A stretch of 35,280 nt of DNA from positions 1 to 35,280 of IMG/VR virus record IMGVR_UViG_3300043419_000158, one strand, 5' to 3'. The notes beneath the pieces were generated by a model, which saw only the letters and a list, made by a program, of their open reading frames with translations, had not been told where the DNA came from and searched no databases. Source of the DNA: a virus. Shown piece after piece: positions 25,377 to 27,111 of the stretch (its first letter is position 1; every line of letters starts with the position of its first letter). A program made the translations under genes and the position numbers.

Positions 25377-25530
25377 TTTCCCTTTTCCCTTTCATGTTTT
25401 CTATTGCCTTCACCAACATACTTTCTAAACCATGTTGCAACAACATCTTATGACCCTGACTATCAAATACTACCTCTACATTAGCAGAGCCATCTATGTT
25501 TTCTCTAATCCGTTTGATCTGTATCAGCAT
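25249..25530 (-). CDS. Small early protein with a long overlap into the replication gene
   Basis: 93 residues. The first 50 (MLIQIKRIRENIDGSANVEV, then VVFDSQGHKMLLQHGLESML) look like a compact conserved phage protein with a beta-strand pair and a helix. The last 42 (from ENEIRELL) lie in another frame over the start of the replication gene and are Lys/Ser-rich, as if a stop near 25376 had been lost. The start overlaps the gene before it by 26 nt. Function unknown. Confidence 0.5.
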   Translation of the reverse strand: MLIQIKRIRENIDGSANVEVVFDSQGHKMLLQHGLESMLVKAIENMKGKRENEIRELLVAISKKSRKANSKKIVGKTKPRQPTKGARGNSRAS

Positions 25531-25771
25531 CTATCCACACCTTTATGTTTTGATTAAAGTCTGCTTTCATAAGAACTGGCTTATTTAAGCAATCTAGCAT
25601 TTTATACAAAGTCTGTTTTACTTCTTCTTTATCTTCTCCCATTACACCAACACCTCTTGCTGTGTACAGATAAGGCTCATGGTTCTTATCGTAAAAGACC
25701 TCGCACACCTCAACCCAAGGCTCTCCATCGTTCTCGTCTGAAAAGTCTACCACTCTATGATTCCAATGCAT
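25505..25771 (-). CDS. Conserved early protein (MHWNHRVVDF type)
   Basis: 88 residues; ATG at 25771 overlaps the previous stop as TAATG. MHWNHRVVDFSDENDGEPWV then EVCEVFYDKNHEPYLYTARG and KQTLYKMLDCLNKPVLMKAD match a small family found in early operons of many phages. The fold seems alpha/beta; acidic. No known function. Confidence 0.68.
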   Translation of the reverse strand: MHWNHRVVDFSDENDGEPWVEVCEVFYDKNHEPYLYTARGVGVMGEDKEEVKQTLYKMLDCLNKPVLMKADFNQNIKVWIDADTDQTD

Positions 25772-26041: not shown

Positions 26042-26290
26042 GTATTTTCCCTAATGTGTCGTATTTGTTCCATTAACAACCTTTAGGTAGTGTTTATATA
26101 ACAATATACAACTTGTAGGTAAATATTTAAATAACTATACATCTCGTACATATTTTATATATATCAATCCTAACTTGTATAAAAAAGTAGCTTTTGTATA
26201 TATTTTGACAATACTCTCCTTTAGGTGATATGCCTTATCAACCTGATCCATCTGTTACCAGACTAATCCTTCCTAAGATAATGTTCAATC

Positions 26291-26326
26291 ATTTGTAGAC
26301 TTATATATCACCCTTGATCTACAAAT
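26291..26326. repeat. 9-bp perfect inverted repeat ATTTGTAGA-N18-TCTACAAAT
   Basis: Arms at 26291-26299 and 26318-26326 are exact complements. They share the TCTACAAAT core of the operator-like sites at three promoters, so this may be a two-site operator rather than a hairpin. Confidence 0.6.
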
Positions 26327-26346
26327 TTGTGCAGTACCCATTTAAG

Positions 26347-26560
26347 TCTGCGAGGCTTGCCATCCTAGTAGTGAGCCTATCTTTTCTTCCACGCTGCCGA
26401 TATAAGCACTTAATTTCGCTTGGAGTGCGAACGCAGAAAACAAAAAACCCTTAAAGGATGTTCTGAGTTCGAACCCTTTAGAAAAATGTGCTTGCATAAA
26501 CACTTTGCTAAAGCCTCAAAACACCCATTAAGGGCATCTTCCACAGGGTTCGAATCTGCG
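26347..26560. other. Block of nested inverted repeats: structured RNA or replication origin candidate
   Basis: TCTGCG (26347-26352) pairs with CGCAGA (26432-26437) and encloses two hairpins: AGGCT/AGCCT (26353-26357, 26374-26378) and GCACT/AGTGC (26406-26410, 26424-26428). A further TCTGCG (26555-26560) could pair with the same CGCAGA. Between them TAAAGG..GTTC/GAAC-CCTTTA (26452-26480) makes a ten-pair stem, and TTCGAACCCT (26468-26477) is the exact complement of AGGGTTCGAA (26545-26554). Two related units (26441-26476 and 26517-26556) both end in GTTCGAA. No gene reads through it. Strand unknown. Confidence 0.5.
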
Positions 26561-26609
26561 ATAAGTAAATTATAAACCAAAACTTTCAAACTCTCAAACT
26601 TCTGAAAGT

Positions 26610-26921
26610 TTAGAACTCAAACTCTTTGTAGTCATACCTCCCATTTTCTTTTTTGTACCAGCCGAAAACCAAGACACGCCAGTTTGACCTTAAAACTTCT
26701 GGCAACATAGGCGATTCGCTTATTTTTTTTATCCGAGTAGACATATTGCTTTTGGAAGTAAGTTGGATGGCAACAGTCTCTCCGTTTCCAATAGCCAATA
26801 TGTCGAATATGCCAAACAAATCTTTTTTTCGTTTGGTAAAAGCGTTGTACGATTCCACGACATCGCATTGATAGCCTCTTTCGGTCATTAGCGCAATGGT
26901 GCGCTGATTAAGACTAGCCAA
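26610..26921 (-). CDS. PD-(D/E)XK / VRR-NUC-like protein
   Basis: About 103 residues if it begins at the TTG at 26921 (eight-base overlap with the repressor stop); ATG at 26888 gives 92. QRTIALMTERGYQCDVVESY, KDLFGIFDILAIGNGETVAI then QLTSKSNMSTRIKKI fits the nuclease-type core: D in IFDILAI and a Q-x-T where active enzymes carry E-x-K. This variation is common in a phage subfamily and may mean altered or lost catalysis. It is co-transcribed with the repressor. Confidence 0.62.
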   Translation of the reverse strand: MASLNQRTIALMTERGYQCDVVESYNAFTKRKKDLFGIFDILAIGNGETVAIQLTSKSNMSTRIKKISESPMLPEVLRSNWRVLVFGWYKKENGRYDYKEFEF

Positions 26922-27111
26922 GATCTTCTGCTGTAATCTTGCCCTCAGAAGCCTCAATAATGGCTTTGTGGTGCTTTTGTGGGATGCTGTTACGCATTGA
27001 CCAGGCATAGACAGTTACATACTTCATGCCGAGCTTGTCTGCTATATCTTTGTAGCTGCCAAATACTTCTAGCAATTTATCAAAGTGTTGTGTTTTTACA
27101 ACAGTATCCAT
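26914..27111 (-). CDS. Cro/CI-like HTH repressor
   Basis: 65 residues; ATG at 27111 with AAAAGGAGAAG ahead, a strong ribosome site. LLEVFGSYKDIADKLGMKYV then TVYAWSMRNSIPQKHHKAII is a helix-turn-helix of the Cro/YdaS kind (about residues 18-47). Small size, no dimerisation or RecA-cleavage domain, so it is a Cro-type rather than a full CI. It lies divergent from the recombination operon with repeated TCTACAAATC sites between. These are its likely operators. Confidence 0.8.
   Translation of the reverse strand: MDTVVKTQHFDKLLEVFGSYKDIADKLGMKYVTVYAWSMRNSIPQKHHKAIIEASEGKITAEDLG

Follow-up and report, generated by a model that had tools for sequence, protein, structure and literature searches.

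The window analyzed here is a 35.3-kb IMG/VR phage contig. It carries genes for a podovirus-like portal (phrog_1216), a terminase and an endolysin, as well as a Sak-type annealing protein, an exonuclease and a replication initiation protein. An 838-nt gap without genes lies between two minus-strand open reading frames, p132 (26610–27008) and p88 (25505–25771). The initial annotation described nested inverted repeats at 26347–26560, inside this gap, and suggested either a new structured RNA or an origin. Its statement that no gene accounts for this interval was confirmed, and all of the words it quoted were found in place: TCTGCG at 26347–26352 and 26555–26560, CGCAGA at 26432–26437, TTCGAACCCT at 26468–26477 and AGGGTTCGAA at 26545–26554. 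ARAGORN detected no tRNA in the window, nor was a tRNA match obtained with Rfam. The product of p132 had no Pfam match at E 0.01; by eye, its motif FDILAIGNGETVAIQLTSK resembles a PD-(D/E)XK nuclease.

The repeats had been read on the plus strand as more structure than expected by chance. On that strand the fold of 26347–26560 is unexceptional (z = −1.2, with 24 of 200 shuffles equally good), and it is the minus strand that departs from chance (z = −2.7; 3 of 200 shuffles), although the decisive and very strong evidence is comparative. In the core alignment described below, G-U cells outnumber A-C cells by 79 to 22 (35 to 5 once the noisier columns are dropped), which indicates that the minus strand is the functional one. 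The RNA-coding strand is thus the opposite of the one first considered. The original range covers about half of the element, which continues for ∼140 nt more, down to 26206, and spans ∼360 bases on the minus strand, from about 26562 to 26206. The features are as follows, all on the minus strand.

26569–26597, minus strand: predicted σ70-like promoter, TTGAGA-17-TATAAT (11/12 by sequence match), located some 10 nt ahead of the 5′ module.
26206–26562, minus strand: whole RNA element (5′ module and core), its 5′ end placed from the promoter and its 3′ end from a conserved block.
26555–26560, minus strand: putative P1 5′ strand, CGCAGA, partner of 26432–26437 (weakly supported).
26545–26554, minus strand: A strand of the 5′ pseudoknot (TTCGAACCCT), from A-A′ pairing and the swap test.
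26515–26535, minus strand: B strand of the 5′ pseudoknot (GCCCTTAATGGGTGTTTTGAG), from B-B′ pairing in relatives.
26476–26513, minus strand: internal hairpin C (CTTTAG...CTAAAG), between B and A′, as predicted from the minus-strand fold only.
26468–26476, minus strand: A′ strand (GGGTTCGAA), adjoining B′, from A-A′ pairing in relatives.
26447–26467, minus strand: B′ strand (CTCAGAACATCCTTTAAGGGT), from B-B′ pairing in relatives.
26438–26447, minus strand: terminator-like U-run right after B′, from the letters of the window and relatives.
26432–26437, minus strand: putative P1 3′ strand, TCTGCG (weakly supported).
26206–26430, minus strand: conserved core, helices H1–H8 with pseudoknots K1 and K2, from covariance model R1 and pair counts.
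26331–26351, minus strand: hairpin H4 with invariant loop TTAAATGG, 100% paired in 56 of 56 copies.
26307–26312, minus strand: K2 5′ strand, GGTGAT, in the H5 loop, from pair counts.
26224–26229, minus strand: K2 3′ strand, ATCACC, from pair counts.

Relatives were gathered by three motif scans of IMG/VR and with the covariance model R1, which scores 168 bits over 26261–26430 of the window. The core is ∼225 nt long and contains at least two pseudoknots. An alignment (A2) of 56 core copies, mutually less than about 90% identical, was used to evaluate 35 hand-placed pairs. The helices were positioned by eye on the same sequences and are somewhat favored in such counts; 95.0% of the cells pair, compared with 31%–44% in slid controls, and changes on both sides were observed for 28 pairs in 402 cells. 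The covariation score was 0.566 against 0.180 for shuffled alignments, none of 500 shuffles reaching it; shuffle tests are inflated by relatedness, yet pairing still collapses in the slid control, in which relatedness is retained. A blind search by mutual information placed most of the hand-placed pairs at the top and added contacts that had not been proposed, namely 11-18 (A-U 25, G-C 14, C-G 9, U-A 6), 167-178, 34-52 and 30-54. RNAalifold recovered five helices (K1, H2, H3, H4 and H7).

Individual elements of the core vary in a compensatory manner. K1 joins the loop of H1 to a downstream strand (7–10 with 42–45), and all four of its pairs change on both sides, as do all six pairs of the H4 stem. 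K2 is formed between the H5 loop (GGUGA) and the 3′ end of the RNA (UCACC), its fifth pair being A-U in 44 copies, G-C in eight, C-G in one and misread in three. The base of H8 is GAC/GUC in 22 copies, CAU/AUG in 22 and GAU/AUC in 11. The shape of the core is established by this covariation, and the covarying helices are those of a structured noncoding RNA. The covariance search in related phages that the initial annotation had proposed thus revealed both conservation and covariation, in strong support of its "possible new structured RNA." That the inverted repeats arose by chance is refuted by the covariation and has a negligible probability. Protein coding of the core was also rejected, as overlapping reading frames are not shared among relatives, the biggest set comprising 12 loci and lying on the opposite strand. 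Small hypothetical proteins, probably spurious, are annotated across the RNA on the opposite strand in MW202674.1 and at locus L002 (4922–5292).

Upstream of the core, the 5′ module (26560–26432) is fast-evolving and found in most members. A B-B′ helix of 21–25 bp that leads straight into a U-run was observed in about 40 of 51 copies, and in about 40 of 51 the A-A′ helix is interleaved with it in the order A-B-A′-B′, with A′ abutting B′ (the gap is mostly 0). At least six perfect A-A′ pairs were observed in 78% of 40 members but in 8% when partners were swapped between copies; the B-B′ score reported beside this test was 45 against 22. The pairing of TTCGAACCCT with AGGGTTCGAA and the local stem, previously described as two exclusive folds, therefore correspond to A′/A and to interleaved helices of a single pseudoknot. 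The 91-nt unit closed by 26347 and 26432 can form in only seven of 57 relatives, and the strand at 26347 pairs within H4 in 56 of 56 copies; a plus-strand RNA and the 91-nt unit were therefore rejected as not conserved. The competing pairing of 26555 with 26432 (P1, CGCAGA/UCUGCG) may plausibly enclose the pseudoknot in the window, but it is weakly supported among relatives, where the swap test was not significant. The T-arm-like GTTCGAA was not retained either. A strands occur in 21 different sequences, so that the helix is kept and the sequence is not, with no conserved T-arm signature; together with the negative ARAGORN and Rfam searches, this led us to reject a tRNA or T-arm identity. Ten to 15 representatives (e.g., L135, L139, L163 and L169) have no 5′ module, which leaves the core as the conserved unit. 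A circular genome, assembled with overlapping ends, has two strain variants with a near-identical core and different 5′ modules. An exact TATAAT lies upstream in 12 of 40 relatives (2.3 expected).

At least about 150 different IMG/VR records contain the core at more than 100 bits with R1. Among the genomes checked whole, carrier contigs reach 67 kb and R1 finds a single copy in each; a 98-kb contig (L191) also carries a copy. A BLAST search of INPHARED returned one phage, MW202674.1 from Manatee Spring, with 74.8% identity over 99 nt. No family of Rfam 15 matches at gathering or relaxed thresholds, no match was found in plasmids, and no description of the RNA was found in the open-licence full-text literature. 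In a bacterial genome collection the motif scan yielded three chance matches only, and R1 gave no match in the genomes concerned; R1 also found nothing in 369 bacterial genomes of one class, which, with no positive control, is weak evidence. Comparison of loci around the p132 gene indicated that 26203–26594 is present or absent as a block, and in one case (L027) the core is 100% identical while p132 is only 76% identical. The minus strand from 26562 to 26206 is almost certainly one copy of a new family of structured phage RNA, hereafter called type I.

The type I RNA shares the strand of its neighbors. The nearest upstream open reading frame is co-directional with the RNA in 110 of 116 loci and the downstream one in 118 of 121. 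Small HTH/Cro-like genes or p132 lie upstream, p88 and the replication initiation protein lie downstream, and the genes for the annealing protein, exonuclease and SSB are divergent. The site is usually between a Cro-like gene and the replication genes; larger phages instead carry this core ahead of a ParB-like/helicase block that is unrelated. A conserved block, AACAACACATAGGGAAAACACCTA, is seen 3′ of the core and ahead of the next gene at many loci (e.g., L096 and L099) and might serve the replication genes as an operator or promoter.

Close relatives with the same flanking genes carry other RNAs in this gap. The first, type II, is a second undescribed, structured-looking RNA of about 390 nt, found in 20 IMG/VR stretches (e.g., L012, 4465–4850) and carried in this slot by L004, L005, L007, L012, L013, L023 and L032. 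Its 5′ architecture is similar to that of type I, with a TATAAT box and a pseudoknot-like segment that closes with a U-run; compensatory changes are visible (GCGUUAAAUGCUGCACGC / GCGCUAAAUGCUGUGCGC). The second is Betaproteobacteria-1 (RF02932), which follows p132 in L008 (4411–4532), L021, L025 and L028–L031, scores 83–107 bits at the sister loci (gathering score 49.4 bits) and is sometimes followed by an HNH endonuclease gene in the same slot. Its presence in sister phages hints that the host is perhaps a betaproteobacterium. In L031 a type-I-like 5′ module is joined to Betaproteobacteria-1, and in L008 and L011 the end of this HNH gene lies in the 3′ end of the type I RNA.

In more distant relatives (L033–L046) the slot contains small elements of a two-hairpin or terminator-pseudoknot type. 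In L033, L034, L039 and L041–L046 an RNA-like element of about 65–75 nt lies within 90 nt of the end of p132, with a −10-like box on one side and the replication gene on the other, and has the layout GGACAGGCUAG-hairpin-CGAAAAG-hairpin-CUGCCAAGUCC; by eye, its hairpins covary. A similar GGCUAGAGG-hairpin-AGCGAG motif is present in the type II RNA and L051. In L035–L038 and L040 a terminator-like stem with interleaved pairing (A-B-A′-B′-like) stands alone after p132, with no RNA core. Across the loci compared, none of the slot-adjacent genes goes with a single RNA type only, and a dedicated protein partner encoded next door is therefore less likely. Perhaps these unrelated RNAs (type I, type II, Betaproteobacteria-1 and the two-hairpin RNAs) interchange within a constant gene neighborhood, each providing a different specificity for a single control system made of RNA only, for example in antitermination or phage-phage immunity, a reading that we consider rather unlikely.

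The most likely function, which we propose tentatively from sequence and position, is that of a promoter-proximal leader of the early replication transcript, acting in cis on transcription. RNA polymerase would start at the predicted promoter (26597–26569), the 5′ module would be the first part to fold, into a pseudoknotted terminator-like element, after which the core would aid read-through into the replication genes. Overall, this would amount to an RNA-only antitermination or attenuation switch where lambda has nutR-tR1, which lies after cro and before the replication genes. This reading is favored because the RNA occupies that position and begins at a promoter-like sequence, because its 5′ module resembles a terminator within a pseudoknot, and because the small slot RNAs of distant relatives lie almost directly before the replication gene. 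It is further supported by the co-directional neighbors, with Cro/HTH-like genes upstream and the replication initiation protein downstream, and by the recurrence of the core before the ParB-like/helicase block. On the other hand, the nut sites of lambda and the put sites of HK022 are present in both early operons, whereas only one copy per genome was found here with R1, which detects this family and not unrelated RNAs. The core is also far larger than known antiterminator RNAs, and the terminator-like stem is upstream, not downstream, of it.

Nearly as likely, and still short of an even chance, is a stable trans-acting phage RNA like GOLLD, ROOL or Betaproteobacteria-1. Such an RNA would be made early from its own promoter and would target a host process by itself, as an oligomer or together with a host protein, and location in the early operon would merely provide early expression. 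The predicted promoter, the very elaborate core with many invariant nucleotides and several pseudoknots, and the single copy per genome are consistent with this. So are the conserved 3′ part and variable 5′ part, as in GOLLD (PMC12286853), and the presence in the same slot of RF02932, which Rfam classes as an sRNA. Evidence against it comes from the same strand and place before two unrelated replication modules, and from the at least ten representatives that lack the 5′ module and have no obvious promoter of their own.

The origin suggested by the initial annotation, or a transcript processed into a primer near an origin, appears improbable. The RNA is always directly before replication genes, and the cumulative GC-skew minimum of the window is at about 27.0 kb; however, this minimum coincides with the switch of gene direction, and in four larger RNA-bearing phages the skew extrema are away from the RNA, so that GC skew provides no support beyond gene orientation. 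Slightly less probable again is a self-splicing or self-cleaving ribozyme or mobile RNA moving between phages, perhaps with HNH genes, as presence or absence as a block, the identical core beside a diverged p132 and the HNH genes next to Betaproteobacteria-1 might suggest, since the RNA lies between genes with no exon-like flanks, matches no Rfam intron or ribozyme and occurs once per genome.

Large structured RNAs that combine invariant nucleotides with several pseudoknots usually perform demanding tasks such as catalysis, polymerase or ribosome binding, or scaffolding, and to our knowledge few are known from phages. The type I RNA is widespread, absent from Rfam 15 and described by a covariation-proven model, and an orphan Rfam RNA is found at the same locus; the function of any one occupant of the slot would inform the others. 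Betaproteobacteria-1 resembles it in being a structured RNA of unknown function in the same slot after p132 but differs in sequence and fold: the RF02932 model matched neither the window nor any of 18 type I loci, and R1 did not match RF02932 loci. GOLLD and ROOL, whose Rfam models do not match, are likewise large, pseudoknotted, phage-encoded and of unknown function. In GOLLD the 3′ part is conserved and the 5′ part less so (PMC12286853), a pattern shared by type I, which is half the size of GOLLD and ROOL or less and adjoins replication genes rather than tRNA islands. Analogous to HK022 put and lambda nutR-tR1, the type I RNA lies after cro and before replication genes, beside a terminator-like stem, but it is much larger, more elaborate and present in one copy only.
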